Positions 2,621-18,000 of a stretch of 64,000 nt of DNA are shown one piece after another. The stretch is from Polaribacter pectinis (GTDB taxonomy: Bacteria > Bacteroidota > Bacteroidia > Flavobacteriales > Flavobacteriaceae): assembly GCF_014352875.1 (NCBI RefSeq), contig NZ_CP060695.1, positions 1,519,501-1,583,500 on the forward strand, written 5' to 3'. Numbering within the stretch: the stretch's first letter is position 1; each line of letters opens with the position of its first letter. The notes under the pieces were generated by a model. That model had not been told where the DNA came from and ran no database searches. It saw only the letters and a list, made by a program, of their open reading frames with translations. The position numbers and the translations under genes were made by a program.

Positions 2621-2712
2621 GCGTTAGGGATTGAGTGGTTTGTTTGAGCTCTTTTTTCTTTTTCAGAAAAAAAGCGAGTAGCGAAAGCCCGACCTTTTTA
2701 GGGAACGCCCTA
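2621..2712. repeat. Dispersed intergenic repeat, copy A
   Basis: The segment opens GCGTTAGGGATTGAGTGG, passes through a short T-rich/A-rich hairpin core, then reads GCGAAAGCCCGACC and ends GGGAACGCCCTA. The same flanks and core order occur at 13356-13459 and, more diverged, at 5931-6006. Its last bases supply the stop codon of pirin-2 (TAG, complement of 2710-2712). I recognise this as a repeat type common between flavobacterial genes; its mobility and function are unknown to me. Confidence 0.7.
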
Positions 2713-3579: not shown

Positions 3580-3598
3580 GATTTTTACATTTATTTTA

Positions 3599-3611
3599 TT
3601 TCCCTTGGAAA
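3599..3611. promoter_or_regulatory. TTTCCAAGGGAAA inverted repeat before pirin-2
   Basis: On the minus strand, TTTCC and GGAAA arms are separated by three bases, 20 bases before the pirin-2 start. The extended block TATTTTCCAAGG also occurs upstream of the doxX-osmC pair (5804-5813), where the core TTCCAAGGAA overlaps the -33 promoter element. A shared operator is plausible. Confidence 0.4.
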
Positions 3612-3630
3612 ATATTTTTGCAAATTTTTA

Positions 3631-4068
3631 CTATCGAATTTTGTCTAATAAATCACTTAATTGAGACGCTTCTTTCTCCGTTAAATTCTCTAAAAAGGAT
3701 AGGTTTTTATTCACGTCAATATTGGAAAGTAACTCTAAACCTTCTTCTGTAATTTTTACATACACTACTCTTCTATCGTGTTCGCAACGAATTCTTTCAA
3801 TTAAGTTTTTCTCACATAATTTATCCATTAAACGTGTTGCATTTGGTGCACGTTCAATCATTCTATCTTTAATAATTTGAACCTTAATTTCTTTCTTTGC
3901 TCCTCTTAAAATTCGTAAAATATTAAATTGTTGTGGCGAAATTCCATAAGGTTTAAAGAAATCATTTTCTTTACTATTCAGCCAATTTGCTGTATATTTT
4001 ATGTTGATTAAAGCCTTTATTTTATCGTCTTTAAAATTCGATTGTATGTCTTTAGAAATATCGCCCAT
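3631..4068 (-). CDS. MarR family winged-helix transcriptional regulator
   Basis: A 145-residue one-domain DNA-binding protein, normal for MarR/SlyA. The recognition region reads YGISPQQFNILRILRG, followed by the conserved wing block NATRLMDKLCEKNLIERI and DRRVVYVKITEEG. Two cysteines, in DKLCEKN and RIRCEHDRR, sit beside the recognition helix and wing. MarR proteins of the OhrR/QsrR/YodB kind sense oxidants or quinones through cysteines, so these are candidates for sensing residues (inference; their positions are not the canonical N-terminal one). The gene begins two bases after the glutaredoxin-like gene, which in turn follows the FMN reductase closely. It is therefore the third gene of a tight operon and is probably autoregulated. 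Likely targets are the surrounding pirin, OsmC/DoxX and fadH genes. Confidence 0.88.
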   Translation of the reverse strand: MGDISKDIQSNFKDDKIKALINIKYTANWLNSKENDFFKPYGISPQQFNILRILRGAKKEIKVQIIKDRMIERAPNATRLMDKLCEKNLIERIRCEHDRRVVYVKITEEGLELLSNIDVNKNLSFLENLTEKEASQLSDLLDKIR

Positions 4069-4070
4069 TT

Positions 4071-4319
4071 TTACGCTCTTAAATTTAAGTCTTGCATTAT
4101 TTTATTAAATTCTTCTGTTGTTGGTGTTAAATAAACTTCTTCATCAACAATTAAAGTTGGGTATTTAACAACGCCACCATATAATTCTTTTGTATGTTTT
4201 TTTGCCTCTTCATCTAACGCAACATCTTTATAAACATAGGGAATGTCTGTAGAATTTAGGAAATTCTTAAATGCAACTGTGTATGCATGTCCTTTTCTTC
4301 CGTACAAAGTTATTTTCAT
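4071..4319 (-). CDS. Glutaredoxin-fold protein lacking any cysteine
   Basis: An 82-residue protein with glutaredoxin layout: an initial strand MKITLYG, a helix AYTVAFKNFL at the usual active-site helix, the mid-chain cis-proline block VKYPTLIVDEE (TVP-like), and a C-terminal helix. The CxxC position reads GRKGHAYT, and no cysteine occurs anywhere in the protein. It therefore cannot do dithiol or monothiol redox chemistry and may bind a partner or a thiol ligand, or be a degenerate relative. It sits between an FMN reductase (3-base gap) and a MarR regulator (2-base gap), so its transcription is tied to them. The fold is inferred from pattern alone and no function is known. Confidence 0.75.
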   Translation of the reverse strand: MKITLYGRKGHAYTVAFKNFLNSTDIPYVYKDVALDEEAKKHTKELYGGVVKYPTLIVDEEVYLTPTTEEFNKIMQDLNLRA

Positions 4320-4322
4320 AAT

Positions 4323-4859
4323 TTATTGATTTACCGATTTTTCAAAATCATTTACTGCTGTTTTTAATTGCTCGTTTAAGTCTTCTTCTATAATTTTTCC
4401 GTCTTTAAAATTATCAGAAAAACTTGGTAAAGAGAATGTTAAAAGCTCTTTTACTCCCATTCTTGGAAACTTTGAAACTCCTGCTTCTAAAACTGATTGT
4501 CCACCTCTTGCTCCAGGTGAAGTAGCCATTAATAACAACGATTTATTTCTAAAAACTTTTGCTTCTATTCTTGAACTCCAATCGAAAATATTTTTAAAAG
4601 CGGATGCATAAGAACCATTGTGTTCTGCTAAAGACAAAATAAAACCATCGTATTTATCTAATAATTTTGAGAATTTCTCTGCGTTTTCTGGAAATCCGTT
4701 TTCTTTTTCTTCATCTTCGCTGTAGATTACCATTGGATAATCTCTTAAATCGATTACATCGAATTTTGTGTTTTCTAAATTTTCTGAAGCGTAAGTTGCT
4801 AACTTTTTATTAATTGATGTTGAACTTGTACTTCCTGCAAATGCTAATATCTTTTTCAT
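4323..4859 (-). CDS. NAD(P)H-dependent FMN reductase / quinone reductase-like flavoprotein
   Basis: A 178-residue flavodoxin-fold protein of the NADPH-dependent FMN reductase family (like ChrR/YieF/AzoR-type flavoproteins). The phosphate-binding loop is AFAGSTSSTSINKKLA near the N-terminus. The conserved flavin-contact block EHNGSYASAFKNIFDW follows in mid-chain, with SPGARGG after it. Members reduce quinones, azo compounds, chromate or free flavin, usually in two-electron steps that avoid radical formation. It heads the tight run FMN reductase, glutaredoxin-like, marR. No clear promoter was found in the 151 bases upstream, which are filled with low-complexity repeats. A detoxifying quinone reductase role is likely given the context, but the substrate is unknown. 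Confidence 0.85.
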   Translation of the reverse strand: MKKILAFAGSTSSTSINKKLATYASENLENTKFDVIDLRDYPMVIYSEDEEKENGFPENAEKFSKLLDKYDGFILSLAEHNGSYASAFKNIFDWSSRIEAKVFRNKSLLLMATSPGARGGQSVLEAGVSKFPRMGVKELLTFSLPSFSDNFKDGKIIEEDLNEQLKTAVNDFEKSVNQ

Positions 4860-4870
4860 ATAATTTAAAA

Positions 4871-5018
4871 TGTGTAATTGTGTAATTGTTTAACTGTGTA
4901 ATTGTTACAGTTGATTGTTTTTTTTCTCGCAAAAGCTCAAAGTTTTAAACTTCTATACTGTTACTGAAAACTGCGACTGCAAACTGTCCTACTGAAAACT
5001 GCCAACTGATCTACTGAA
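4871..5018. repeat. Low-complexity intergenic repeats: TGTAATTG units then ACTG-rich units
   Basis: From 4871 to about 4915 the unit TGTAATTGT recurs with variation. From about 4957 to 5018 the motif ACTG recurs roughly every 6-10 bases (ACTGAAAACTGC, ACTGCAAACTG and similar). The second block runs into the last codons of the osmC gene. Similar ACTG-rich stretches occur at 7748-7763, 12190-12240 and 13462-13530. Confidence 0.6.
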
Positions 5019-5406
5019 TGCTACTAACTATTTCAGTTTCTCCTTTTACCATTTTTGCGACTGGACATTTTCCTGCAATTACTAACAAACGTTTTCTTTG
5101 ATCTTCATCTATTTCTTTTTCGAATGAAATTTCTTCACTTAAATGAGTTCCATTTTCGTCTTTTATTTGTGAAACATTTACTGTGATTTCTCCAACATCC
5201 CAACCTTTTCTTTCTGCATAAATTCTTAATGTGATAGAAACACAACCACCAATTGCAGTTAATAAATATTCTACTGGTGTTGGCCCATTATCATCTCCAC
5301 CAACATTTACGGGTTCGTCTATTACTGCAAAATGATTTCTCATTTTTGCTTCTGCTAAATATTTTTTGGTAGTTAAAACTACTTTTGAATTTGTGTTATC
5401 TGACAT
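5011..5406 (-). CDS. OsmC/YhfA-like peroxidase family protein
   Basis: A 131-residue OsmC-fold protein. The two family cysteines are present, in the helix AIGGCVSITLRIYAERKGW and in AGKCPVAKMV, with the usual GPTPVEYLL stretch before the first. OsmC/Ohr proteins reduce organic hydroperoxides through this thiol pair; the YhfA subgroup is less well characterised. Length is normal. Its start overlaps the end of the doxX gene by 11 bases, so the two are translationally coupled. The candidate operator before doxX would control both. The combination of a thiol peroxidase with DoxX membrane protein, pirins and MarR fits a peroxide/electrophile response. Confidence 0.85.
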   Translation of the reverse strand: MSDNTNSKVVLTTKKYLAEAKMRNHFAVIDEPVNVGGDDNGPTPVEYLLTAIGGCVSITLRIYAERKGWDVGEITVNVSQIKDENGTHLSEEISFEKEIDEDQRKRLLVIAGKCPVAKMVKGETEIVSSIQ

Positions 5407-5758
5407 TATTTATTTTTTTATTGAATATATATGAAACTATTAATAGTATCATTGCAACTACTGCTCCCATTTGTTCTCCATCTCCAATCATAAAATGTGC
5501 GAAGAATGCAAAAATAAATGCGAAGAAAAAACCTGCATAAGCCCATTCTTTTAATGTTTTGTTTCCTATGAACCATATTGCTGTTAATCCTAATAGTTTT
5601 GCAATTGCATATGGATAAATAATATAAGTTGGATACCCAAAATTGGCAAACATTCCTGCTACTTCTGCGTGATTAAAAATATACATTCCTGCAGAAAAAA
5701 GCATTAATAAAGTTAATAAACCCGTACTTATATAATAAACTATTTTGTTTGTTTTCAT
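5396..5758 (-). CDS. DoxX-like four-helix membrane protein
   Basis: A 120-residue integral membrane protein with four hydrophobic segments, beginning IVYYISTGLLTLLMLFSAGM and ending in AVVAMILLIVSYIF. It carries the YPxYIIYPYAIAKLLG pattern typical of DoxX-like proteins. DoxX relatives act with thiosulfate:quinone oxidoreductase or in membrane-associated oxidant defence complexes; the role here is unknown. The ATG at 5756-5758 is preferred. A TTG 18 codons upstream would place the start inside the promoter and operator, which is unlikely. It is the first gene of the doxX-osmC pair and has a near-ideal promoter (TTG-N20-TAACTTTG). Confidence 0.78.
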   Translation of the reverse strand: MKTNKIVYYISTGLLTLLMLFSAGMYIFNHAEVAGMFANFGYPTYIIYPYAIAKLLGLTAIWFIGNKTLKEWAYAGFFFAFIFAFFAHFMIGDGEQMGAVVAMILLIVSYIFNKKINNVR

Positions 5759-5781
5759 TTCGATTGGTTTTAAATTGAATA

Positions 5782-5831
5782 CAAAGTTACGAAATAAATA
5801 TTTATTTTCCAAGGAATATAATTCTATGGAA
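5782..5831 (-). promoter_or_regulatory. doxX-osmC promoter with TTCCAAGGAA operator over the -33 element
   Basis: On the minus strand the -7 element TAACTTTG (complement of 5782-5789) and a -33 TTG (complement of 5810-5812) are separated by exactly 20 bases, the Bacteroidota consensus. The palindrome-like TTCC-AA-GGAA at 5807-5816 covers the -33 element. A second, similar site, TTCTATGGAA, lies at 5822-5831. Repression by occlusion is the natural reading. Confidence 0.65.
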
Positions 5832-5868: not shown

Positions 5869-5900
5869 AAACCCTTCAGATAATAGATTCTGAAGGGTTT
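5869..5900 (-). terminator. Terminator closing the AAA+/coiled-coil gene cluster
   Basis: Arms AAACCCTTCAGA (5869-5880) and TCTGAAGGGTTT (5889-5900) pair perfectly across an 8-base loop, with a T-rich stretch following on the minus strand. It lies beyond repeat copy B and is the only strong terminator found between 14878 and the doxX promoter. Confidence 0.75.
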
Positions 5901-5930
5901 ATTAATAAGTAATATGGTTTACAAACAAGT

Positions 5931-6006
5931 TTAGCCCTGATTGAAATGGCATCCTTTTTTTGATTTTTCTTCAAAAAAAGATATAATGGAAAGCAGGAAA
6001 TAGCTT
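5931..6006. repeat. Dispersed intergenic repeat, copy B (diverged)
   Basis: It reads TTAGCCCTGATTGAAATGGC, then ATCC with a T-run, a small A/T hairpin, then ATATAATGGAAAGCAGGAAA and TAGCTT. The order of parts (ATTGAA...ATCC-T-run, hairpin, GGAAAGC..GA) matches copy C at 13356-13459, so I treat both as one family although the outer flanks differ. Confidence 0.6.
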
Positions 6007-6015
6007 CAAAAAAAA

Positions 6016-7707
6016 TTATTGATTAATACGAATAGAATCTATCTGTTTTTGAAGACGCTGAATTTCTTTAACGTTCTTTTCCTTTTTAGAAATCAGTTGA
6101 ATGGAATCTAATATTGCCTGATTTTTTTCTATAACTGTCAGCTCTTTTTCGAAATAAATATTTTCTCCTTCACTGGTTCTCCACGCTTCGTTTAATTGAT
6201 TATAAACTTCCTCGTTCCAAGTACTTGGTTTCTTTGCGTTGATCCAAACAACATCTCTGTATTCGCTGTCTACCAAAGCTAAATCTGGTGTTGCAGAACC
6301 ATCAAACTGATTGGGATTGTTTGTACTAATCGTAGAAACTGTCCCTAAAAAGAACATGCGCTTTCTACCTGCAATATTCTTAATATATGGTCTGAATTCA
6401 ACTGGAGAATTCGCGTTCCAATCGTATTCTTTTTTAGATTCTTTTACTTTTAAAGGCATCGCAGAAACGCCTGCATAACCTTGTTTTTTTGATGCGTGAT
6501 CGTAATAATAAAACTTATCAGTACCATCTGCAGGAATAAAAACACTGTAACTTAAACTGGTTCTTTCTTCGCCAACTGGCTCTAAACCAAACCAATGATA
6601 CAACCCGCTAAATGCGCCAATTTTTGTATCAGAAAAATCGAAATCGGTTACATAAGGTTGTGCATTTTGGTCTTTTGGAGCCACTGGAATCTTAACTGCG
6701 CTTTTCATATTCCAAGGTAATGGATCTGAAAAACCTGCTAAAAACTTTAAAGATTCGGCTTGTAAACGAGAAACTTTTTCAGACAATGTATTTTGTTTTG
6801 TCAAATATTCGTAGTTTTTCATTTCTTCTGGTGAAATATAGGTTCCTTTTCCGATGGTTATTCGCTCTAAATAATCATTGAAATTATGTTCGCCATTTTC
6901 AACAACCATTACTCCACCAAAAGTTGGATATGGAAAAAAGAATCCTCTCCACTTTATTAAACTCACAACTTGAACCCAAGCACCTTTGTCGTTTTTCATG
7001 TAAAATGTGTCACTTGGCTCGTAATTGAACAACATCCAAGGGTTTAATCTTTGAACAACTGCATTGTAAGTATTTCTGCTGAATTTTAAAGATTCGCCAA
7101 TTGAAAAAGTGACTGGAATTCTATTTTCGCTCGAAAATCTTGGAAAAGGAGTTGTACTTGACACTGAAAAAACTTCTTCTGTATTGTCTTTTAAACCTTG
7201 CCAATAATATTTTTCTGTGGGCTGAATTGCCATTGTCCATTGATTGTTTCCATCTACTCTAACCAAATGTGGTAAAGAAACATCTTTGGTTTCGCCAACG
7301 GATTCGTTAGCCATCGAAAAAATATTTCTTAAAGGTTGAATTCTCTCATTTTGAGTTAATGGAAGTTCTACAATTTCAATTCTTTTTAAATCGTTAAATA
7401 CATTGTAAGTCTGCATGTAGTTGTACATTTTCTGTTGAAAACCTACGTAATAAATTGCTCCAAAAAAAAGTGCTAATAGAAACAAAATTCCTATTCTACT
7501 TCCTGTACTTGCAGATTTTCGGAATTTTCTTAATCCGAAATATAAAACAGTAAAACACAATAAAATTATAAATATGAACTTTCTAAAAAACAACAATGCT
7601 GGTTGATAATCGTCTCTTAAAAAAAACAATAATGCTATTATAATTAAAGAAAATATGATGACTCTCTTTTTCTGTTTTGATCCTTTATTCCAATAATTTT
7701 TTATCAT
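6016..7707 (-). CDS. Unrecognised membrane protein with large exported or cytoplasmic domain
   Basis: A 563-residue protein I cannot assign. Three hydrophobic segments near the N-terminus are visible (about residues 15-30, 38-59 and 70-88). They are followed by a long soluble domain rich in Trp, Tyr and Phe (WQGLKDN, GGVMVVENGEHNF, YHWFGLEPVGEE) and a C-terminal helix ELTVIEKNQAILDSIQLISKKEKNVK with coiled-coil character. No catalytic motif is evident. It is the last gene of the run starting at 14878 and is followed by repeat copy B and a terminator. It begins 56 bases after the 173-residue membrane protein. Its constant company with the AAA+ ATPase suggests it is the membrane-anchored end of one system (inference). 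Confidence 0.6.
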   Translation of the reverse strand: MIKNYWNKGSKQKKRVIIFSLIIIALLFFLRDDYQPALLFFRKFIFIILLCFTVLYFGLRKFRKSASTGSRIGILFLLALFFGAIYYVGFQQKMYNYMQTYNVFNDLKRIEIVELPLTQNERIQPLRNIFSMANESVGETKDVSLPHLVRVDGNNQWTMAIQPTEKYYWQGLKDNTEEVFSVSSTTPFPRFSSENRIPVTFSIGESLKFSRNTYNAVVQRLNPWMLFNYEPSDTFYMKNDKGAWVQVVSLIKWRGFFFPYPTFGGVMVVENGEHNFNDYLERITIGKGTYISPEEMKNYEYLTKQNTLSEKVSRLQAESLKFLAGFSDPLPWNMKSAVKIPVAPKDQNAQPYVTDFDFSDTKIGAFSGLYHWFGLEPVGEERTSLSYSVFIPADGTDKFYYYDHASKKQGYAGVSAMPLKVKESKKEYDWNANSPVEFRPYIKNIAGRKRMFFLGTVSTISTNNPNQFDGSATPDLALVDSEYRDVVWINAKKPSTWNEEVYNQLNEAWRTSEGENIYFEKELTVIEKNQAILDSIQLISKKEKNVKEIQRLQKQIDSIRINQ

Positions 7708-7720
7708 TTCTTTTACTTTT

Positions 7721-7763
7721 TTGCCACGAATTCACAAATATTTTTTAACTGAAAACTGAATAC
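7721..7763. repeat. CCACGAATTCAC fragment followed by ACTGAAAACTG unit
   Basis: The 56-base gap between the two membrane-protein genes consists almost entirely of a CCACGAATTCACAAA stretch and ACTGAAAACTGAATAC. Both resemble simple intergenic repeats seen widely in flavobacteria. No promoter was recognised. Confidence 0.4.
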
Positions 7764-8285
7764 TTAAAGCAATCCTTTGTCTTTTAAACGTTCTCTTGCG
7801 CTCTTCTCTTCTACTTTTGGCTTTTCTATTTCTTCTTGTGCTTTTTTAATTGCAACTGGCTCTTCTCCTTTTAAATCTTCTATAAAATCTTTTCCTTTTT
7901 CTACAACATCGTTGAATTTATCTTCTAAAGAATCTGACTGTTCATCTATAATTGCTGATGATTTAAAGATAAACCCTGCTAAATACGTTCCTACTAATGT
8001 TCCGAAAATCATAGAAGCAAATAATGAAATTGTTGCTAAATCAATCGGAATTAAAAAACGTGTGATTAAAATTCCAATCAAGAAAAATGATACTATAAAC
8101 ACCAATCTTAAAAGAAAACTTTGCTCATAAACAAAACCTTTTTTATCTGTAGTTTTCATCTGTAACTCTTTCGAATTCATTAATTTATTAAAGAATCTAT
8201 ATACTCTATTGGTTTGTGATTCTCTCCAATAAATAATGATTCCGAATACAATTGAGGCGATAAATATAATGAGTTCTAATGTCAT
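7764..8285 (-). CDS. Small membrane protein with acidic/basic C-terminal tail, function unknown
   Basis: A 173-residue protein with an N-terminal hydrophobic segment (about residues 3-19), a basic stretch (WRESQTNRVYRFFNKLMNSKE), a hydrophobic region at about 60-82 and another at about 86-109. A charged tail follows (DKFNDVVEKGKDFIEDLKGEE, then KKAQEEIEKPKVEEKSARERLKDKG) with helical, possibly coiled-coil character. I recognise no domain. It sits 42 bases after the 411-residue unknown gene and 56 before the 563-residue membrane protein, so the three are probably co-transcribed. It may anchor or scaffold other products of the cluster; that is a guess from layout only. Confidence 0.6.
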   Translation of the reverse strand: MTLELIIFIASIVFGIIIYWRESQTNRVYRFFNKLMNSKELQMKTTDKKGFVYEQSFLLRLVFIVSFFLIGILITRFLIPIDLATISLFASMIFGTLVGTYLAGFIFKSSAIIDEQSDSLEDKFNDVVEKGKDFIEDLKGEEPVAIKKAQEEIEKPKVEEKSARERLKDKGLL

Positions 8286-8327
8286 AATTTTAAAGTTTAG
8301 TGTTCTTATAATATAAGTCTATTTTTT

Positions 8328-9563
8328 TTAAAAATTGTTACAAATTGTTTCTACAATCCAATCTTGAACAGATTCGTCTAACGTTTCGAATCGCTCATAA
8401 AACTGTTCTTTGTCATACCAATATAAAAACAAAACATCTTTAGGTGCAATGTTTACCAACAAATACCAAATTAAATCTTGGTTTGCAGGTTTTAAAGATG
8501 AATGTGGTTTATTTAAAGCGACAAATAATTCGTCGTCTAAAATATCTTTCGCTTTTAATGTTTTTGAAATCTCTTTCTTTTGGAGAAAAAGTTCTAAACC
8601 CATCACTTTTTTACGTGCTTGTATATCTATTTTATTCAAATAACTTTTAAATAAAATTGGATCTTCTAAAACATCTTTTACTGGATGATTCGTTTCTTTT
8701 AAATATTCTGAAAAAATGTATTTTTTGATTCTATCATATCTTTTTCCTGAAACTTCTTCGTTTAAATCGAACTCAATTACATCGTAACTTAACAGTCTTT
8801 CAATTAATTCTTTATGAGAAATATGATACATTAAGACATCATACGTTGTGTCGTTTATGGCTTCTTTATAGGTTTCTTCTTTTTCGAAAATTAAGATGGG
8901 TTTTACAAAATCTCTTAAAACAAATATTCCTCCAAATGCTTTCGTGTAGAAAGAATCTGATGTAAAAGAAACCGATTCTAAATCTAAAGTTCTTTCTCTT
9001 AAATCACCATATTTTTTTGCAGATGCCAATAATTTCTGATGTAAATTTTCATCAATGAAATTTGTGTCCTCGTTAAAGATTTCAATCAGTTTTAATTGTT
9101 CTGCTTTTGCAACATCTAAATTATTTATTAAATGAAATTTAATGTTGACTTCTTTATATTTTAATACATCTAAAGGCTCGTAAAATGTATCTATATTTTG
9201 ATCAAAGTCTACACAAATCGCTGAATCTCTTGTAATATTATTTATTTTATCTCCGTGTTTTCTAAAAACAGTTTTCATCATTTCTCTGTCAAAAGAATGA
9301 AACGGATTGTAAACTGGTAATCCTTTTTGTAATGGAGTTATGATAATTGCGTGTGTGTTTGCTTCGCCATTATTTAAATAAAAAGCTTCCTTTTTTTCTT
9401 GGGCAATTTCTGGGCTCCAACCAACTCCATCAATTGAAAAATTGGTGAGTTTTGTCGCTGAAAAACCTAATTTCAACAAACATTTATTGTAACGTTCTAC
9501 TAATTTTCCACTGATGGGAATTAGTTCGCTTCTGTATAAATTGGCTTTTTTTAGTTTTTGCAT
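8328..9563 (-). CDS. Unrecognised 411-residue soluble protein of the AAA+ cluster
   Basis: No domain recognised. The protein is soluble, with mixed alpha/beta composition and no signal peptide or membrane segment. Segments that stand out are GWSPEIAQEKKEAFYLNN, the run VYNPFHSFDREMMKTVFRKH, and a Trp/Tyr-rich C-terminus. The preferred start is the ATG at 9561-9563 (MQKLKKANLYRSEL). A further ATG at 9576-9578 would add five residues, but it lies inside the GTCATTCCTGC inverted repeat, so it is probably an accidental start supplied by the repeat. It is flanked by the Nudix gene (upstream, across the repeat) and two membrane-protein genes (downstream). It is presumably a cytoplasmic partner in the same system. 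Confidence 0.6.
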   Translation of the reverse strand: MQKLKKANLYRSELIPISGKLVERYNKCLLKLGFSATKLTNFSIDGVGWSPEIAQEKKEAFYLNNGEANTHAIIITPLQKGLPVYNPFHSFDREMMKTVFRKHGDKINNITRDSAICVDFDQNIDTFYEPLDVLKYKEVNIKFHLINNLDVAKAEQLKLIEIFNEDTNFIDENLHQKLLASAKKYGDLRERTLDLESVSFTSDSFYTKAFGGIFVLRDFVKPILIFEKEETYKEAINDTTYDVLMYHISHKELIERLLSYDVIEFDLNEEVSGKRYDRIKKYIFSEYLKETNHPVKDVLEDPILFKSYLNKIDIQARKKVMGLELFLQKKEISKTLKAKDILDDELFVALNKPHSSLKPANQDLIWYLLVNIAPKDVLFLYWYDKEQFYERFETLDESVQDWIVETICNNF

Positions 9564-9571
9564 ATTCTTTT

Positions 9572-9641
9572 TTGTCATTCCTGCGAAGGCAGGAATCTAA
9601 ATTATACTTTTTATGGATTCCTGCCTACGCAGGAATGACAA
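9572..9641. repeat. Head-to-head pair of GTCATTCCTGCG...GGCAGGAATC repeat units
   Basis: A 26-bp unit (9572-9597) contains the palindromic core CATTCCTGCGAAGGCAGGAAT. A reverse-complement copy lies at 9616-9641 (differences only in the core loop, GAAG versus GTAG), separated by 18 bases. The transcript can fold into two small hairpins or one long one. This is a REP/BIME-like element of a type widespread in bacterial genomes. Here it fills the 86-base gap between the Nudix gene and the next gene of the run. Confidence 0.8.
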
Positions 9642-9649
9642 ACGTCTTT

Positions 9650-10234
9650 TTAAATTAATCCTTTTACTTTCAAATGATACAACAACATAATTGTTCTTGC
9701 ATCTATAATTTCTTTGTTCTCTATCATTTTTAAAGCTTCATCAAAAGAAGTTTCTAAAACTGTAATTTCTTCACTTTCTTCTGCTAAACCTCCTCCTTTT
9801 TCAACTTTGTCTTCATTTGTATATTTTGCAACATATAAATGGACTTGCTCTCTCATTAATCCTGGTGATAAAAAAACAGTAGTTACTTTTTCGATTTCAG
9901 AAATATTGTAACCAATTTCTTCTTTTGTTTCTCTGATTACACTTGCTTCTGGTAATTCTTTTTTATCAATTGAACCCCCAACAACTTCTATCGAAAATCC
10001 GTTTTTAATACCAGCAACATACATTGGTATTCTAAATTGCTTCGATAAAACAACCTTTTTTGTTGATGGATTGTATAATAAAACTGCAACTCCATCTGCT
10101 TTTCCATACACTTCGTGTGTTAAACGTTCAGTTTTTCCGTTTTTGAAAGTAAAATCGAAACTGACTTGCTCTAACTTTGCCCAAATATTGGAAAGTACTT
10201 TTGATGTTACATTTTTGATTTTATTATCTGTCAC
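9650..10234 (-). CDS. nudK: Nudix hydrolase, GDP-mannose pyrophosphatase (NudK)-like
   Basis: A 194-residue Nudix protein. The box matches GX5EX7REUXEEXGU as GSIDKKE, then LPEASVIRETKEEIGY. The N-terminus (KVLSNIWAKLEQVSFDF) and the later blocks VFLSPGLMREQVHLYVAKY, GGGLAEESEEI and EIIDARTIMLLYHL follow E. coli NudK, which hydrolyses GDP-mannose and other nucleotide sugars. The substrate here is unproven; ADP-ribose is the main alternative. I choose the GTG at 10232-10234, which overlaps the end of the ATPase gene by 11 bases. A TTG at 10264 would extend it by ten residues without family support. The translational coupling to an AAA+ ATPase is notable and suggests a role inside this cluster beyond simple housekeeping. 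Confidence 0.8.
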   Translation of the reverse strand: MTDNKIKNVTSKVLSNIWAKLEQVSFDFTFKNGKTERLTHEVYGKADGVAVLLYNPSTKKVVLSKQFRIPMYVAGIKNGFSIEVVGGSIDKKELPEASVIRETKEEIGYNISEIEKVTTVFLSPGLMREQVHLYVAKYTNEDKVEKGGGLAEESEEITVLETSFDEALKMIENKEIIDARTIMLLYHLKVKGLI

Positions 10235-12185
10235 CTCCAAATGTTTTTCTCGCTTCCAAATCAATATTTAATTGATTCACTCTACTATCTACTTTTCTCT
10301 TGAAATCTGTATCTGCAATCGTTGCAACATTGTCTAAATAACGCACAACTTCTTGTCTCCTAATTTCTGAAAAATCTAAACCTTTCATGTTACTTTTCAT
10401 CAATTCTTGCAACATATTAAACTTGGTTTCATAATCTTTCTTGAAATATATTTCAGGGTTTTCGAACCAATCTTTTTCTAAATCGAAATCTGTTAATCGT
10501 AATGAAATTGCAGATTGAATATTACGCACATCTCTTGAAGAGAAAAAAGGAAATATTTGCTGAATTTCTTTGTACAAACTCGCAAAAAATAAATGATGAT
10601 TCGTTTTATGCAACTTTTCAGCTTTATCATAGGCTTGTAAAACTCTTTCTTCGGAAGGTTTTCCTGCCGAATCTAAAATTTCTCCCATACTTTTTGCCAA
10701 ACCTTGGTCTTTTAAATATTGATAATTTTCTGGGTTTTGCATATTCACAAAATCTGGAATTGTTTTATCAAATTTCTTCCACCAAATATAATCTTGGTCT
10801 AAAAAGTCGTGTTCAGTTCTTGCTCCATCAATTTTGAATCTTCCTTGCACACGAGAAATAACAGCTTTATCTAACATTTCTGGTAAATTCGTAAATAAAC
10901 CTATTGAAGAATTTCCATAATTTACTGCATAAGCGCCTTCTGTATAACGTAAGAAAACACCAATTACTTCTTTAACACCTGCTGAAACTCCTTGTGCAGT
11001 TCTTTCTTGTAAATTATTTTCTGCATCGTCAATTGGCGCAAAAATTAATTTTGTTGGATCTTGCATTGGCTTCATCCACTCCACCATTTTTTCTGCAGAA
11101 CCTCCTTGAAAAGTACTAATTAAAGTATCTGGCATTGGGTGAAACAAAAACGGAATATCTAAATTATCTGAGTGTTCTTTTAAACGCGTTGCAATGGCCG
11201 CAATTAACATACTTTTTCCTGTTCCTGGAATTCCATACCCCATAAAAACTGGCATAAAACCTCCTAATTCTTGAAACGGATTTTTCTTCGCATCAAAATC
11301 GTAGCTCAACATTCTTTCTGTTAATCTACGTGCAAAATGTTTTGCATCTTTATTCCCTACAATCTGCTCAAACTGAATTTTATTAAACTCAACACTTTTT
11401 GCGGTTCCAGCAAAAACATTGTCCCAACCTGAAACTGCAAAATCGCTGTTTTCTAATTTATAAGTTCTATCTACAATTGTTTCTACATATTCTAACGTGC
11501 TTTTTCGAAGCTGAATTTCATCAATAAATGCTTCAAAATAAACGACTGTAAAATCGATAACATCTTTATCCGTTTTTACAATATCTGGATGTCCTAAATA
11601 TTTATCAAAATAAAATAATGCACACGCAATTCCTTTTAATGGTGAAGTAAAAGATACTTCAGGAATTCCTGCAAATTTCTGCTTCATTACAGATAAATCG
11701 TCTGAAGCATGAGGTTTTAAATCGTGTAAAATTTTATACGCAGTTGCAAATAATTGAAACGCAGTTGCTGTTTGTAATTTGCTTTCGTATTCTCTTTTTC
11801 CTGAATTATCTAAAGCCGATTTTCGTTCGTTTAAACTCGATAAACCAGATGCATCGTAATAACTATCTTTTATCCAAATTCCTAAAGTAATTCCTTCTTG
11901 AACAGCATACAAAGTCTGATTCAAATACACAGGAATTGCAATAGAATCTGGCAATAATCGCTTTTTTAAGCCTAAAATAGTTTTAGAAACAGAGGTGATT
12001 TCTACGTTACTTCCGCTATTCGCTCTTGACAAATACAATAAAATTGAATCGTCTTTCGCGTCTTTATCTTTATTTTTTGCTCTATTACTTTGTTCCCATT
12101 GAATAGATTTTAAATAACCAGAAGCTTCGTCTCGAAGCATGTCTAATTCGTTTTGTTTTATTGGGAAAGTTGAGTTGTGTTCCAT
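10224..12185 (-). CDS. AAA+ ATPase of an uncharacterised gene cluster
   Basis: A 653-residue protein with a single AAA+ module in its centre and C-terminal half. Walker A GIPGTGKSML lies near residues 316-326, Walker B LIFAPIDDAEN near 379-389 (Asp-Asp rather than Asp-Glu), sensor 1 GLFTNLPEM near 427-435, and a candidate arginine finger SRVQGRF near 442-448. About 300 N-terminal residues precede the module and show no recognised domain. The sensor/finger block resembles the classical AAA clade (VPS4/SpoVK-like), suggesting a hexameric remodelling ATPase that acts on protein partners. Candidate clients are the coiled-coil and membrane proteins encoded beside it. The next gene (Nudix) overlaps its end. 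The family is unfamiliar to me and no function should be assumed. Confidence 0.8.
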   Translation of the reverse strand: MEHNSTFPIKQNELDMLRDEASGYLKSIQWEQSNRAKNKDKDAKDDSILLYLSRANSGSNVEITSVSKTILGLKKRLLPDSIAIPVYLNQTLYAVQEGITLGIWIKDSYYDASGLSSLNERKSALDNSGKREYESKLQTATAFQLFATAYKILHDLKPHASDDLSVMKQKFAGIPEVSFTSPLKGIACALFYFDKYLGHPDIVKTDKDVIDFTVVYFEAFIDEIQLRKSTLEYVETIVDRTYKLENSDFAVSGWDNVFAGTAKSVEFNKIQFEQIVGNKDAKHFARRLTERMLSYDFDAKKNPFQELGGFMPVFMGYGIPGTGKSMLIAAIATRLKEHSDNLDIPFLFHPMPDTLISTFQGGSAEKMVEWMKPMQDPTKLIFAPIDDAENNLQERTAQGVSAGVKEVIGVFLRYTEGAYAVNYGNSSIGLFTNLPEMLDKAVISRVQGRFKIDGARTEHDFLDQDYIWWKKFDKTIPDFVNMQNPENYQYLKDQGLAKSMGEILDSAGKPSEERVLQAYDKAEKLHKTNHHLFFASLYKEIQQIFPFFSSRDVRNIQSAISLRLTDFDLEKDWFENPEIYFKKDYETKFNMLQELMKSNMKGLDFSEIRRQEVVRYLDNVATIADTDFKRKVDSRVNQLNIDLEARKTFGGDR

Positions 12186-12240
12186 TTTTTTAGTTTTCAG
12201 TTTACAGTTTCAGTAAGCAGTTGAATTCTGCTACTGCTAC
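12186..12240. repeat. ACTG/CAGT-rich low-complexity spacer
   Basis: The 63-base gap before the ATPase gene is dominated by CAGTTT/CAGTAAGCAG and CTGCTACTGCTAC units. It belongs with the ACTG-rich stretches at 4957-5018 and 13462-13530. No promoter element was recognised. Confidence 0.45.
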
Positions 12241-12248
12241 TCTATACT

Positions 12249-13298
12249 TTATATTTTGTCAATTTTTAAACTTGCTAATTCAATCGGACTTTTCGCCAAT
12301 TTATGCAATACTTCAGGCGTTTGATTGTGCAATAATTGAATAATTCTATGTGGAGCAAAAACATATCTTTGTTTGATTACATCGCTCCATTTTTGCATGG
12401 TTTGTTTCGAGAAAAAACCACCTTCAGTAAATGTTTCTCCAGAAAAAACCTCATCTATTTTTAAGGATAATGCATACGATTCTAAAGGAATTTCTTTTTT
12501 TGAAATTCCAGTTAAAATAGCATGAGTTATTTTGTTTTCGTCTTTTGCAAATACATTATGAAAAGGCCCTAAATCGATTCTTTTGATATGTTTTGGCTGA
12601 ATATTTGGTAGTTTTCTATCAATATTATACGCCATTGTATCTAAAGGCATTTGTCTATCTGCGCTCTCTTTCAATACTTTATAGATGTTTTCTTTTTCAT
12701 CCATAATTCGTTTTCCATCGTAATTAAAATACAAATAACAAATAAATGGTCTGTTATGACTCACATCGTAAAAGCTCCAACTTGTCATTAAATCTGCATT
12801 GCTTCCTTTTGGAGCATTTATGATTTTACCTTGTACAAATCTGTTAAAAATAAATTTTTGATTTACTGATTTATAATATACAATTGAAGATGCTTGAAAC
12901 AATCTATCTCTTCTAACAGGCTGTTTTTTCTTTAATAAAGTGTCTAAAAATTCTTCTTTTAAAGAAACTGTATCTGTTAATTTGTGAATGTATTCGTTTT
13001 TTAATTCTAAATCGTTGTACAAAAAACGGAACTCCAAATAATTAGGAAAACCAGAATCTGTTAAATCGACTTTCATATTATCTTCCTCATCATACATATA
13101 TTTAATACGCATGGCTTCAATGGAATATAAAAGTAAATCTGAATATTGCTTAAAAATCAACAGTTCTTGCTGACTGCATAATTTTTCTTGCTGAACGCTT
13201 ACAATCAATTCTTTTAATACGAAATCTACCATTTTGTGATAAAAAACGTATTGTTCTTTTGAGTCTAAAAGTGCAGAATCTAAAGGTGTTGTAATCAT
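12249..13298 (-). CDS. Unrecognised 349-residue protein of the AAA+ cluster
   Basis: No domain recognised. The first 120 residues are strongly helical and charged (KEQYVFYHKMVDFVLKEL, LYNDLELKNEYIHKLTDTV). The remainder looks like alpha/beta (SFYDVSHNRPFICYLYFNYDG, LGPFHNVFAKDENKITHAILTG, RYVFAPHRIIQLLHNQ). There is no signal peptide or membrane segment and only two cysteines. It lies between the coiled-coil gene and the AAA+ ATPase gene in the same orientation, with a 63-base gap to the ATPase. It could be an adaptor or substrate-recognition partner; only position supports that idea. Confidence 0.6.
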   Translation of the reverse strand: MITTPLDSALLDSKEQYVFYHKMVDFVLKELIVSVQQEKLCSQQELLIFKQYSDLLLYSIEAMRIKYMYDEEDNMKVDLTDSGFPNYLEFRFLYNDLELKNEYIHKLTDTVSLKEEFLDTLLKKKQPVRRDRLFQASSIVYYKSVNQKFIFNRFVQGKIINAPKGSNADLMTSWSFYDVSHNRPFICYLYFNYDGKRIMDEKENIYKVLKESADRQMPLDTMAYNIDRKLPNIQPKHIKRIDLGPFHNVFAKDENKITHAILTGISKKEIPLESYALSLKIDEVFSGETFTEGGFFSKQTMQKWSDVIKQRYVFAPHRIIQLLHNQTPEVLHKLAKSPIELASLKIDKI

Positions 13299-13355
13299 TT
13301 TTTTAGTTGAAATTCTTTTAGCTATTCAATTTAAAATTGGCTGGCAAATATGTTT

Positions 13356-13459
13356 GCGTTAAGGATTGAAGCGTTATCCTTTTTTCTTTTTTGAAAAAAG
13401 ATTTAAGCGGAAAGCCTGACCTTCTTTTTGTATTTCAAAAAAAGAAGGTAACGCCCTTA
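13356..13459. repeat. Dispersed intergenic repeat, copy C
   Basis: It opens GCGTTAAGGATTGAAGCG, continues ATCC plus T-run, a T/A hairpin, then TAAGCGGAAAGCCTGACC, a second hairpin (CTTCTTTTT with AAAAAGAAG), and closes GGTAACGCCCTTA. Start, core and end match copy A at 2621-2712. It occupies nearly half of the 236-base gap after the coiled-coil gene. Confidence 0.7.
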
Positions 13460-13461
13460 TT

Positions 13462-13530
13462 AGTCGGCTGTCTTCAGCAGGCAGTCTTCAGTCAAAAACT
13501 GACTGTTAACTTGGAGACTGCTGACTGAAT
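13462..13530. repeat. ACTG/CAGT-rich low-complexity spacer
   Basis: Directly beyond copy C, CAGTCTTCAGTC, ACTGACTG, GACTGCTGACTG and similar units repeat up to the stop codon of the coiled-coil gene. It is the longest ACTG-rich block of the cluster. Confidence 0.5.
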
Positions 13531-13534
13531 ACTT

Positions 13535-14878
13535 CTATCCTAACAAATCATCGTTAGAAGATTCCTTTTTTGGAGCTGCAGCTGGTTCGTCATCATTTCC
13601 AGAAGGTGCGTTTGCATCTGCTTTGTAATAGTCCTCGAAAATCTCTTTCATGTCGATTCCATATCTGTCTGCAAAGTTCTTTTGAATGTCGATATCTTTT
13701 TCACGTATTTCATGTAAAGCCTCTGCATACGTACTGTAAACACCTTTCATAACTTTCTCATGAACTGGAATATTTTCCATCATATCTTGACGCGCTCTTG
13801 CACTCGCAGAATGCATAGAAGCCAAGGTTTCACCAATATGTTCGTCTGTTTTCACACCTAAATGCTCTAAAATAGCTGCGAATTCTTGGTCTGTTCTTGC
13901 TTTTAACGCAACAATATAACCATCGTAATATTTTAGCCTTTCTTCAGTATCTGACTTTAATTTTGCTCTGTGCGTTTGTAAATTAGAACGTAAAGAAGTT
14001 AATACTTTTATCGTTAAATTGTGTTTGTGCACAAAACTATCTTTACTGGCAGCCAAAGTTGTATAAGCGTTTTTCAACCCTTCTAATTCCTCTACTTTTT
14101 GCTCAATCGTTGTTACTTTTCCGATTGCTTCTGAATAGGCTGTAGATTGCTTGTCAGCAATTTCGTCTAATTCTTGGCGAGATTGTTTTAAAAGTGCATA
14201 TTGCTCTTCTAATTTATCTTCTACTTCCTTCTTCTTTTCTAATGCTTTTGTATGATTTTTTGAAGCTTCTACAATCGCCGTTTTTAGTTTTTCTTCTACT
14301 TCTTTAATCTCTACTTCTCTGTTTTTTAAACGTGTAACTGCAGCTTGAGATTTAAAAGAAAGTTCGCCCAATAAAGTTTGAATATCTGCACTTTCAATTC
14401 TTGTTTGAAACAATGCTTTTGCTTTATTATCTGCACCTGCCCTTGTTTTTTCTGCTTGTGCAAATTCTGCTTCTTCTTTTTTAATCTTCGATTTTCTTCC
14501 CCACAAATTATTCCACCAAGTATCTGGTTTGTTTTTTGCGTCTTCTAATTCGATTCTTGCTCTTTCTAATGCTTTTTGTGCATCGTCAATAACCTTTTGT
14601 TCTTCTGCATTTAAAGCTGAAAAACCTTCGAATTTAATACCAACTTCATCTTGATAATCAGTTAAATCTTTAATGGCATCTAACAATGTACTTCTGTCTT
14701 GTTTTGCCATATCTACAACATCATCTAACGTTGCATTTAATATTTTTTGACGCTTTTCTGGATCTTCTTCTTGAGACAATTTAGATTTCATTGTATCAAT
14801 CGCTTTTCCCCAATTAACATCTACTTTTTCAGTTTTTTGAGTAGAGTTTGTTTCTAATAAGTCAAAGTCATCAGCCAT
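13535..14878 (-). CDS. Long coiled-coil protein, first gene of the AAA+ cluster
   Basis: A 447-residue, highly charged, almost entirely helical protein. Heptad-like stretches run from about residue 75 to 330 (QKALERARIELEDAKNK, REVEIKEVEEKLKTAIVEA, KKKEVEDKLEEQYALLKQ). Two tryptophan-rich breaks occur at TWWNNLWGR near residue 120, and the tail is acidic and Ala/Pro-rich (GNDDEPAAAPKKE). There is no signal peptide or membrane segment. In general appearance it recalls scaffold proteins such as PspA- or TelA-type helical proteins, but I cannot place it in a family. It is the first gene of the minus-strand run that includes the AAA+ ATPase, and is the likely structural client of that ATPase (inference). 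A 199-base divergent promoter region lies upstream. Confidence 0.65.
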   Translation of the reverse strand: MADDFDLLETNSTQKTEKVDVNWGKAIDTMKSKLSQEEDPEKRQKILNATLDDVVDMAKQDRSTLLDAIKDLTDYQDEVGIKFEGFSALNAEEQKVIDDAQKALERARIELEDAKNKPDTWWNNLWGRKSKIKKEEAEFAQAEKTRAGADNKAKALFQTRIESADIQTLLGELSFKSQAAVTRLKNREVEIKEVEEKLKTAIVEASKNHTKALEKKKEVEDKLEEQYALLKQSRQELDEIADKQSTAYSEAIGKVTTIEQKVEELEGLKNAYTTLAASKDSFVHKHNLTIKVLTSLRSNLQTHRAKLKSDTEERLKYYDGYIVALKARTDQEFAAILEHLGVKTDEHIGETLASMHSASARARQDMMENIPVHEKVMKGVYSTYAEALHEIREKDIDIQKNFADRYGIDMKEIFEDYYKADANAPSGNDDEPAAAPKKESSNDDLLG

Positions 14879-15077
14879 ATGTATTTAGTTTTTTAAGTTG
14901 AACAATTTTTTAAGTGAAGCAATTTCGTTAATTTTTTTCAGAAAAAAGAAGTTTTGCTTTAATTATATGTAGCAATTAAACATTAATTGTTACAAAAAGT
15001 CTAATAATTTTAAAAGTTTATTAAATTCTTATGAATTTCTCACTATTTTTAGCCAGTTATACTTAATTAAAAATTCA
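14879..15077. promoter_or_regulatory. Divergent intergenic region between the AAA+ cluster and the giant T9SS protein
   Basis: These 199 very AT-rich bases must contain both start signals. No exact TAnnTTTG was found on either strand. The nearest plus-strand match is TATTTTTA, 25-30 bases before the ATG at 15078. No palindrome or RNA structure stands out. Confidence 0.35.
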
Positions 15078-18000
15078 ATGTTAAAAAATAACTTTTCTTT
15101 CTTTTTATTATTCCTTTTTGGTTTATTAAGTTTTCAACATATAAATGCTCAATTAAGTAAAAAACATTTTATACCGCCCTTAACTTACGCGGAAACAGGA
15201 AATGCAAATCCTGAAGATCAATTCTTTTACATTTCTACACCAAGTAACCAGAATGTTTCATTTAGAATAAAACAAGTAGGTTTTCCGACAAATGATATTA
15301 CAGGTGTAGTTTCTAGCACAAGTCCGCAAGAAATAGCTATTGGAAATGGAGACAGTCAGTTGTTTGTAGATTCAAGACAAACAAGTGTTGTATTTACAGA
15401 CAAAGGATATATAATTGAAGCTGAAGACGTTATTTATGTTTCCATAAGAGTTTCTGCTGGTGGTGGAGCACAAGCTGGGGCTTTAATTAGTAAAGGTTCT
15501 TCAGCTTTAGGTAAAACTTTTAGAGCAGGAATGTTTACCAATGAAAATCCGCAAACAAATTACCTAAACTTCATTTCTGTAATGGCTTCAGAAAATAATA
15601 CGGTGGTTAATTTCGATGATTTGCCAGCAGGAATATCAATCAAAAATTATTCAGGAGCCTTACCAATTTCTAACATTATATTAAATGAAGGAGAAAGTTA
15701 TGTTGTGGCAACTAATGCTGCAGACAATACAATAAATAGAGATGCTTTAATTGGTACTTTAGTTACTTCAGACAAAGAAATAGTTGTAAATATTGGTTCT
15801 GCAAATGGAAGTTTTCATAATGGTGGAGGAAGAGATTATGGAATTGATCAAATTGTAGATGTCTCTAAAATTGGCTCTGAATATATTTTTGTAAAAGGTG
15901 ATGGTTCTGATGGTTGGGAAAATGCTTTAATAGTTGCTCATGAAGATAACACTACTATTAATATTAATGGAAACGGAGTTACATCAACCATAAATGCTGG
16001 CGAATATTTTGTTATAGAAGGTGATAATTTTAACGCTAATGGCAATATGCATGTACAAACTTCCAAACCTGTTTTTGCATATCAAGGAATTGGAGCAAAC
16101 ACAAGTGAAGCAAACCAAGGTTTGTTTTTTGTACCACCATTAAGTTGCGAAAACAGAGGAAAAGTAGATAACATACCAAATATAGAAAGTATTGGAACTA
16201 CCACTTTTACAGGTGGAATTACAATTGTTACTAACAAAGGTGCAACTGTAAATATAAACTCACAACCAATTGCAAATTTCTCTACATCAGGGCCTTTTGA
16301 TGTTGATGGAAACGCAAATTACGTTACTTATAAAGTAACAAATTTAACTGGAAACATTTCTATTGAAAGTAGCGAGGAATTGTATTGTGCTTATTTTAAT
16401 CAAAATGGTGCCGCAACTTCTGGTAGTTTTTATTCTGGGTTTCCTTCTGCTCCAGAAATTAATTTCGACGCAACAGTTTCTGCACTTGGAAACTGCATAC
16501 CAAATGTAACTTTAAAAGCCGCAAATACAGATTTATTTGATACGTTTGAGTGGTTTTACGACGATGAAACTGGTGGTGGTTTTATTGCAACTGGTGTAAC
16601 TGCCCCAACTTTAAAACCAACTCAACCAGGTAAATACAAACTAAAAGCAACCATAATTTGTACAATGTCTGATTTTGAATCGATAGAAGTACCAGTTAGT
16701 ATTTGTCCAGATGATTATGATGGAGATACTATAATAGACAATTTAGATGATGATATTGACAATGACGGAATCTTAAATTGCGATGAATCTATCGGAAATG
16801 CCAATATAAATATTACAGATATTAATAATCCAAGCATTACCTTTCAAGACAATTCTACAAACTCTACAATTATATCAAGTAGTTTTTCACAAAACTCTTC
16901 TGGCACAGCAAACACTTTTTCTGGCCAACCAGATGGTAATTTTGTTTCTACTTTAAATGCAGAAAATATTTCTAATTTAAAATACGAATTAAACTTCACC
17001 CAGAACATTAATTTTGAACTCACACAAGCTTCTGGTGCAAATCATACTATTGTAAATGGAGAGTTTTTTATCGTAAAAATTGGACCTAACAATAAAAACA
17101 TTACACTTTTAGACCCAGACAACAACCTACTAGTTGACACTAATTTCGATGGTATTTTCGAATCAGGAATCACAACTATTTCTGCTTCAGAAATTCACTT
17201 TACATTCAACCCTTCTCCTACGGGAACAACTCCGTTTAAGTTTGTAGCAAATCAAGTTAATAATATTACTTTTGAACACAAATCGAATTCAATATCAGCA
17301 ACCTCTATTTTTAATGGAAACCTATTATTGACTTGTTTTTCTCGAGATTCTGATAATGACGGAATCGAAGATATGTTCGATTTAGATGCTGATAATGATG
17401 GTATTCCTGATGCTATTGAAACAGCAAATGACACTGACAATGATGGCGTTTTAAATTATTTAGATTTAGATGCAGATAATGATGGTATTTACGATTCTAC
17501 TGAAGCTGGCCATAATTTAGATACCAATTTCGACGGAATTGTAGACAATGCAAACACCTTAATTGGCGCAAACGGCTTGGCAGATAATTTAGAAACTACA
17601 CCAGATAATAAAACGCTTTCTATCAACTACATAATTACTGATACAGATGCAGACAATAATTTTAATTTTCTTGAATTAGATGCTGATAATGATAATTGTA
17701 ATGATGTTATAGAAGCTGGTTTTACAGACGAAAATGACGATGGAATTTTAGGTAACATTCCCTTACAAGTTGATACAAATGGAAAAGTTATAAATACCGT
17801 TAATGGATATACAAATCCTAACGCAAATTATACAACTTCTGCCCCAATTGTCATAAATACTCCTTTTAACGATTTTACGTTTTGCGAAAACTCAACCTCA
17901 AACATCACTATAGATTCTAATGCGGATGGGTTTCAGTGGCAAGTTTCTACAGATACAACAACTTGGAACAATGTAAACAACAATTCCGTTTACAATGGAG

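Follow-up and report, generated by a model that had tools for sequence, protein, structure and literature searches.

An AAA ATPase gene cluster of Flavobacteriaceae and Alphaproteobacteria with swapped membrane modules and a variable gene slot

The genome of Polaribacter pectinis (3.47 Mb, one contig) carries, within the 64,000-nucleotide stretch of contig NZ_CP060695.1 analysed here (positions 1,519,501 to 1,583,500; hereafter the window), seven open reading frames (ORFs) arranged head to tail on the minus strand. In reading order they encode a coiled-coil protein (A), a presumed adaptor (B), an AAA ATPase (C), a Nudix hydrolase (D), a DUF6638 protein (E) and two membrane proteins (F and G). 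The original prediction for this locus, which gave all seven ORFs in their correct place, strand and order, proposed that they form a single set in which the ATPase acts on a coiled-coil scaffold linked to the membrane pair, possibly gated by a nucleotide or nucleotide sugar that the Nudix enzyme removes. Are these genes one functional unit, and what might such a unit do? Comparison of the window with related loci revealed an AAA system present in two phyla, with swapped membrane modules and a codon-precise slot for cargo genes, which is undescribed in the literature searched.

Six genes kept together and a core shared by two phyla

Analysis of 299 Flavobacteriaceae genomes revealed gene C in 87 and gene E in 86, and comparison of the two lists by eye placed all 86 E-bearing genomes among the 87 with C. 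The sole genome with C but without E (G436) has a completeness of 73% and encodes a C truncated at 327 amino acids. In a phylum-wide sample, C and DUF6638 occurred in the same four of 296 genomes. Among 40 flavobacterial loci, A was found in 39, B in 39, C in 40, E in 38, F in 37 and G in 37, and the order A-B-C-E on one strand was kept in 37. In contrast, D was found in only 11 of the 40, which rules out a fixed seven-gene unit. In those split clusters that were checked, the missing partner turned up elsewhere: one genome has E about 750 kb distant (G380), another has A on a different contig (G508), and in a genome of the source genus (G088) E is located just outside the fetched stretch. In a further genome of that genus (G029), A, C and E were all without a match. 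Separate occurrence in relatives, which would have spoken against the set, was thus not seen, and the claim that the ATPase, coiled-coil and membrane proteins belong together held.

Co-divergence among the A, B, C, E, F and G proteins, measured in the 36 flavobacterial loci (of 40) in which all six are encoded and uncorrected for shared species history, ranged from 0.74 to 0.91, compared with 0.50 for D and C (11 loci). Among the flavobacterial proteins, A was conserved best, with a mean divergence of 17% versus 22% for C. On the strength of co-occurrence, gene order and co-divergence, sequence comparison indicates that A, B, C, E, F and G are one functional unit and that D stands outside it, so the single seven-gene set gives way to a six-gene unit with an optional Nudix gene.

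The core of A, B, C and E reaches well beyond Flavobacteriaceae. A scan of species genomes found at least 567 stretches encoding a relative of C (one locus may count twice); the alphaproteobacterial loci in all counts given here are the best 80 of these, all alphaproteobacterial by genus. With iterated profiles, A-B-C-E were found in order on one strand in 73 of the 80 alphaproteobacterial loci and in five of five plasmid loci, and these gene-order counts, like the flavobacterial one, take in all loci, exceptions included. Seven alphaproteobacterial loci depart from this order: six are short or lie at a contig end, and the seventh (L090), which is full length, has E elsewhere in the genome. 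The families of the two groups were related in hidden Markov model (HMM) comparisons, each E-value coming from a single comparison: 3e-10 for A (probability 96.7%), 9e-26 for B, 1e-57 for C and 1e-40 for E. For A and B, the two families also compared with reversed decoys, these decoys gave E-values of 0.09 or worse. Conservation of the A-B-C-E order in two phyla puts the arrangement beyond chance. Of 299 genomes sampled from the phylum to which an alphaproteobacterium belongs, 20 had DUF6638; the 14 control genomes had none. Searches of viral contigs and of phage records found no relative. In total, the core was recovered from at least 167 genomes or species loci in two phyla (87 + 80), with relatives in well-studied genera including Sinorhizobium, Ruegeria and Vibrio.

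When plasmid records were searched at the protein level, C and E were matched in the same ten, which come from Sinorhizobium, Rhizobium, Shinella and Vibrio; the five plasmid loci (Vibrio, Rhizobiaceae) were fetched from these. In the Vibrio vulnificus stretch L079 (a plasmid-like replicon; 13130-16591), the next gene after the core carries the annotation transcription-repair coupling factor (mfd).

A candidate remodelling machine at the inner membrane

Protein C consists of an N-terminal region of about 260-300 amino acids, an AAA domain matching PF00004 at residues 317-452 (35.6 bits, cut-off 21.2; E-value 1.4e-8) and a C-terminal extension; the motifs GIPGTGKS and LIFAPIDD, on which the original assignment drew, are both present. 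The Walker A motif, the sensor-1 Asn and an aromatic-Q-G pore loop (YQGKS in 84, FQGGS in 40) were found in all 124 C proteins, the pore loop suggesting substrate threading. A sequence search of PDB gave VCP-like, Cdc48, proteasomal and Vps4 ATPases as the closest solved chains, over the AAA domain.

The predicted structure of A is made up chiefly of long helices, broken at a Trp-rich basic loop (WWNNLWGRK) that lies between predicted helices. A WWNNLWGRK-like pattern is present in 38 of 39 flavobacterial A proteins and a TGWExFxGxF-like one in 62 of 78 from Alphaproteobacteria. All 39 flavobacterial proteins also end, after a variable linker, in a di-leucine sequence (DDLLG), and 35 of 39 have DFDLLE near the N-terminus; the acidic di-leucine ends, which are absent from alphaproteobacterial A proteins, are possible contacts for the ATPase or an adaptor. 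Genes A, B, F and G had no Pfam or NCBIfam family above cut-off, and C, D and E were each assigned to one. Protein E, described earlier as a 411-residue protein without a readable family, belongs to DUF6638 (PF20343; 125.4 bits, cut-off 27; E-value 3.7e-36) and has 411 residues if translation starts at the Met conserved in relatives. Its structure was predicted confidently (pLDDT, the predicted local distance difference test score, 91.7; pTM, the predicted template modelling score, 0.87), and fold searches with the model gave no clear PDB relative. A literature search for DUF6638, the only component of the core to bear a label, gave no paper.

Following E, Flavobacteriaceae carry F and G. Protein F has about three hydrophobic segments and a long tail ending KSARERLKDKG, and G has about three N-terminal hydrophobic segments followed by a large, strongly conserved C-terminal domain (mean column identity 70% over G); a sequence search of PDB gave no relative of G at E-values up to 1. 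Judged by eye from hydrophobicity and charge, the C-terminal domain of G is probably periplasmic and the tail of F probably cytoplasmic. The same position is filled differently in the 80 alphaproteobacterial and plasmid loci with E, where the downstream gene encodes DUF1523 in 53 and DUF2333 in 24, never both and always on the strand of E; Pfam confirmed DUF1523 on one member and DUF2333 on two, the others being assigned by profile. In 50 of the 53 DUF1523 loci, that gene is preceded by one for an 88-residue protein with two hydrophobic segments. The comparison of loci thus indicates that the membrane module is swapped between lineages, each replacement being made in position.

What would such an assembly do? 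Members of the classical AAA class remodel membranes and protein complexes in eukaryotes and archaea. Because the pore-loop AAA ATPase of this cluster has as neighbours a helical protein whose loop probably contacts the membrane and a module that would face the periplasm, we propose, with about an even chance of being right, that the cluster encodes a conserved AAA machine of bacteria that works at the inner membrane and remodels the helical scaffold A. From knowledge of the family we infer that remodelling of A at the inner membrane is the most likely mechanism. In this proposal A would assemble at the inner membrane, on its cytoplasmic side, aided by the aromatic and basic loop, and would be anchored by the membrane module (here F and G), which may sense or act on the periplasmic side. 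B and E would be adaptors through which the ATPase is linked to A and to the membrane module, and the C ring would pull its substrate by way of the aromatic pore loop, so that ATP would drive disassembly or reshaping of A as Vps4 does for the endosomal sorting complex required for transport III (ESCRT-III) and Cdc48 for its clients. The likely task of the machine would be upkeep or remodelling of the envelope, with the Nudix protein D as a passenger that shares the expression of the operon and is no working part.

Several observations weigh against this proposal, beginning with the ATPase itself. In 124 of 124 C proteins the Walker B motif ends in Asp-Asp and the usual Asp-Glu is absent; because Asp stands in for the usual catalytic Glu, hydrolysis by C is possibly slow or absent. 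This group-wide departure, a testable oddity, may tune hydrolysis. A script pattern for the arginine finger matched none of the 124, a pattern that is uninformative by itself; two Arg columns at that place are invariant in a nine-sequence alignment. The model of A is weak (mean pLDDT 65, pTM 0.46), and fold searches with it gave no significant match, only generic ones to long helices. The W-loop pattern matched none of five plasmid-locus A proteins, and those from Rhizobiaceae that were inspected have Tyr in place of Trp in the loop. Pfam searches at E-values up to 1 found no MIT domain in C and no Snf7 or PspA family in A. As to the membrane module, G and DUF2333 were not detectably homologous (hhalign E-value 0.11), so the modules are equivalent by position only, and three of the 80 loci with E, both from Vibrio and one from Rhizobium leguminosarum, had neither DUF1523 nor DUF2333. 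The co-divergence values, uncorrected as they are, also belong here.

A possible, if unlikely, alternative is that the core is an assembly or insertion chaperone resembling those of the MoxR type, in which C, B and E load or mature the membrane module and A is a stalk or spacer. The presence of DUF1523 or DUF2333 after E in 77 of the 80 loci is what such a chaperone would predict, and the strong conservation of the large C-terminal domain of G fits a working client. However, the presumed clients vary by lineage and A, B, C and E are constant; A, which would be a mere spacer, is the most conserved flavobacterial protein; both Vibrio loci lack a neighbouring module; and Pfam found in the cluster no vWA protein, the usual companion of MoxR.

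The C-E slot and the remaining alternatives

The Nudix gene sits in an interval, from the stop codon of C to the start codon of E, whose content varies between loci. Protein D matched the YffH/AdpP Nudix family (TIGR00052; 128 bits, cut-off 79.55) and scored 151.3 bits against the NudK equivalog NF011585 (GDP-mannose pyrophosphatase), under the cut-off of 234, so that the earlier call of a Nudix hydrolase stood, with D short of the threshold for NudK proper. An alternative GTG start at 10234 would shorten D to 194 amino acids and retain the overlap with the stop of C; relatives of D have 194-204. In the nearer relatives of the window the slot holds one Nudix family, of which D is a member (28 of 28 pairs, 8 of 9 loci). 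The slot of a genome of the source genus (G088; stretch L054, 1-8990) extends to about 9 kb and contains, beside D, genes for a 1490-residue CheB/CheR-PAS protein, an RDD protein and two AraC-type regulators.

In Alphaproteobacteria, the slot was the favoured place for extra DNA. Gaps of at least 300 bp occurred between C and E in 55 of 78 loci (three from plasmids), compared with 8 of 81 between B and C and 20 of 81 between A and B (Fisher p of 8e-16 and 7e-9, respectively). The flavobacterial contrast was weak, with such gaps in 14 of 38 loci for C-E, 10 of 39 for B-C, 6 of 37 for E-F, 4 of 37 for F-G and 3 of 39 for A-B. A same-strand slot ORF of at least 100 amino acids was present in 65 of 116 loci and absent from 51; among the 65, the ORF overlapped the stop of C by 4 bp in 17 and the start of E in 18 (either in 29). 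When non-overlapping ORFs only were taken, 76 same-strand slot ORFs from 62 loci fell into 43 clusters, 31 of them singletons; the ORFs were called mechanically, and some are possibly not genes. No alphaproteobacterial slot ORF clustered with D (blastp, 1e-5).

The slot is best seen in nine Ruegeria loci, in which the core proteins average 90-97% identity (every value 85% or more, and at least 94% for C) and the slot genes of 35 of 36 pairs had no blastp match at 1e-3. In 34 of 36 pairs, DNA similarity ended within -24 to +4 of the stop codon of C (+15 and +61 in the others), and it resumed within -5 to +1 of the E start in 21 of the 30 pairs for which the right border could be measured, with nine at +21 to +31 and no value for six of the 36. 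In our view, the nine late and six valueless borders come from E starts called too early in three loci (L147, L148 and L155). Elsewhere in the 12 kb that begin with A, all nine loci align except in part of the A-B gap, and the core lies within a syntenic region. Comparison of these loci thus shows the C-E slot to be real, and it amounts to a natural experiment, in which near-identical machine proteins are accompanied by nearly all different genes in the same place. One locus (L154, about 3750-4750) also has a second stretch to which nothing in the other eight Ruegeria loci aligns; it lies outside the operon, upstream of A. Two otherwise differing slot ORFs (L133, 11923-12618; L149, 11911-12942) have similar starts, GAFPPRTGGAP and GAFPSRTGGAP, perhaps a trace of the exchange process.

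Pfam scans of slot cargo took in 20 proteins, covering 19 of 53 clusters, plus one further protein. The families named in relatives were PIN, Mrr, an AbiJ-like N-terminal domain, DUF559, DUF2971, DUF433 and amidohydrolase, with weak HNH and HEPN matches; 11 of the 20 scanned proteins had no Pfam family at 0.01. Across 46 cargo proteins, including D of the window, 17 PADLOC models were matched, each by only one or two proteins, and 16 PHROG families, each by at most three.

What the slot is for can be read in two ways, and its role in either is something we infer. We favour a tolerated landing place within a translated operon because 51 of 116 loci have no cargo. It is unlikely, in our estimate, that the slot is a functional socket whose inserted gene, the Nudix gene here and one for a nuclease, PIN, AbiJ-like or small membrane protein in other loci, is delivered, activated or controlled by the AAA machine; if true, such a modular bacterial system would be of a new kind, absent from the known defence catalogues. 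The nine Ruegeria loci with exchanged slot genes make the choice between a passive landing site and a functional socket directly testable.

Also quite unlikely is the reading of the cluster as a conflict or stress-response system, with a core that senses a disturbance and, as its effector, the slot gene, whose translation would be coupled to that of C and E. The specificity of the alphaproteobacterial slot, the sharp borders around unrelated Ruegeria cargo, the 4-bp overlaps and the PIN, AbiJ-like, Mrr and DUF559 cargo are all in its favour, and the last of these qualifies the earlier statement that no toxin or nuclease is visible, which was right for the window and not for the slots of relatives. 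Because relatives carry such genes, a conflict-related role for the slot is retained here at that low grade. On the other hand, the 51 loci without a cargo ORF show that the core exists without cargo, slot specificity is weak in flavobacterial loci, most scanned cargo lacked a Pfam family, no PADLOC model recurred in more than two of the 46 proteins, the nearer relatives keep a single Nudix family in the slot, and the core is slow-evolving and, in Ruegeria, syntenic.

A highly doubtful reading makes A a diverged member of the TelA (toxic anion resistance) family and places the cluster among the Ter/TelA stress systems as one of their branches. In its favour, a Trp-rich loop, SWWERLIGR, is present in TelA of Rhodobacterales at a similar place, where the profile alignment is co-linear (E-value 0.004). 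Against this, neither A nor the whole source genome had a PF05816 match, the profile probability was 8% at best compared with 1.8% and 5% for reversed decoys (the TelA sequence sets left out one over-long ORF and ORFs of 470 amino acids or more), and 14 of 26 alphaproteobacterial genomes with the core carry a separate true TelA. Finally, the gating of the ATPase by a nucleotide or nucleotide sugar that the Nudix enzyme removes is very improbable: D overlaps the C stop and its family holds the slot in eight of nine nearer relatives, but only 11 of 40 flavobacterial loci have D and the core persists without it, the slot elsewhere contains unrelated genes or none, and the co-divergence of D with C falls below that among the six.

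Setting of the locus and comparison with known systems

The coordinates of the cluster are collected in Table 1. Its ATPase shares 97% identity with the one from Polaribacter aestuariivivens. The terminator placed after G in the original prediction does correspond to a hairpin, and support for it is weak because such sites are about equally frequent in shuffled sequence (7 found by the scan versus 6.4 in shuffles, standard deviation 2.4). Two Flavo-1 RNAs (RF01705) lie on the plus strand, at 13351-13425 in the A-B gap and at 5929-6004 just past G. With 63 matches in the source genome, 42 of them above cut-off, Flavo-1 is apparently a dispersed repeat; among eight related loci, one (L057) also carries it in the A-B gap. 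Beside A, a divergent gene (15078-20630, plus strand) encodes an 1850-residue protein with a type IX secretion CHU_C end. Downstream, the minus-strand genes at 2710-5812 encode pirin, OsmC and DoxX_2 proteins (by Pfam) together with MarR-like and NADPH-FMN-reductase-like proteins assigned by reading the sequence; they may be a small redox-stress group, possibly unrelated to the cluster.

Table 1. Features of the cluster in the window, all on the minus strand
Feature	Position	Strand	Description
Gene A	13535-14878	-	447 aa, coiled coil; presumed scaffold/substrate
Gene B	12249-13298	-	349 aa, without Pfam family; presumed adaptor
Gene C	10224-12185	-	653 aa, classical AAA ATPase
Gene D	9650-10264	-	204 aa with TTG start; Nudix hydrolase, YffH/AdpP family
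C-E slot	9579-10226	-	C stop codon to E start codon; Nudix gene inside
Gene E	8328-9578	-	416 aa, DUF6638; core component
Gene F	7764-8285	-	173 aa, small membrane protein; flavobacterial membrane module
Gene G	6016-7707	-	563 aa, membrane protein; flavobacterial membrane module
Terminator-like hairpin 3' of G	5869-5900	-	from hairpin scan
Whole cluster	6016-14878	-	seven ORFs, head to tail (ORF list of the window)

Comparison with PADLOC defence systems revealed no match of the core beyond the generic AAA domain: A matched weakly (best E-value 0.0045), C matched IetA best (3e-5) over its AAA part only, and B, E, F and G had no match at E-values up to 1. The passenger D matched PDC-S07 (1.5e-6). 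Operons with exchangeable effectors, such as the cyclic oligonucleotide-based antiphage signalling system (CBASS), similarly combine a conserved core with a variable gene position; unlike them, this core has no known sensor family, and its cargo is optional and much of it without a recognised effector domain. TelA (PF05816) resembles A as a helical protein with a similarly placed Trp-rich loop and differs in that no family or profile match was significant. MoxR-type systems, such as RavA-ViaA, likewise pair an AAA ATPase with a dedicated partner near the membrane, whereas C is a classical AAA protein of PF00004 with no MoxR assignment and the cluster has no vWA protein by Pfam.

The neighbourhoods of PspA and Snf7 come closer, being operons of AAA ATPases, coiled-coil proteins and membrane proteins that have been read as systems for ATP-dependent membrane remodelling (PMC11237479, mSystems 2024). 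As presented in the relevant passages of that paper, they contain PspA or Snf7, neither of which was seen in this core, and those passages do not describe the present gene set.

The nearest parallels in composition are Vps4/ESCRT-III and the archaeal CdvC/CdvB, in which a classical AAA ATPase also stands beside a helical, presumably membrane-associated partner; with Vps4, C shares sequence similarity over the AAA domain, the pore-loop aromatic and sensor 1. Unlike Vps4/ESCRT-III, the cluster has no MIT or Snf7/PspA family by Pfam, has an Asp-Asp Walker B, and adds the conserved proteins B and E and modules that probably face the periplasm. By the sequence tests run, the cluster is not an ESCRT member, and the best reading of these likenesses would be a bacterial system that is Vps4-like in its action.

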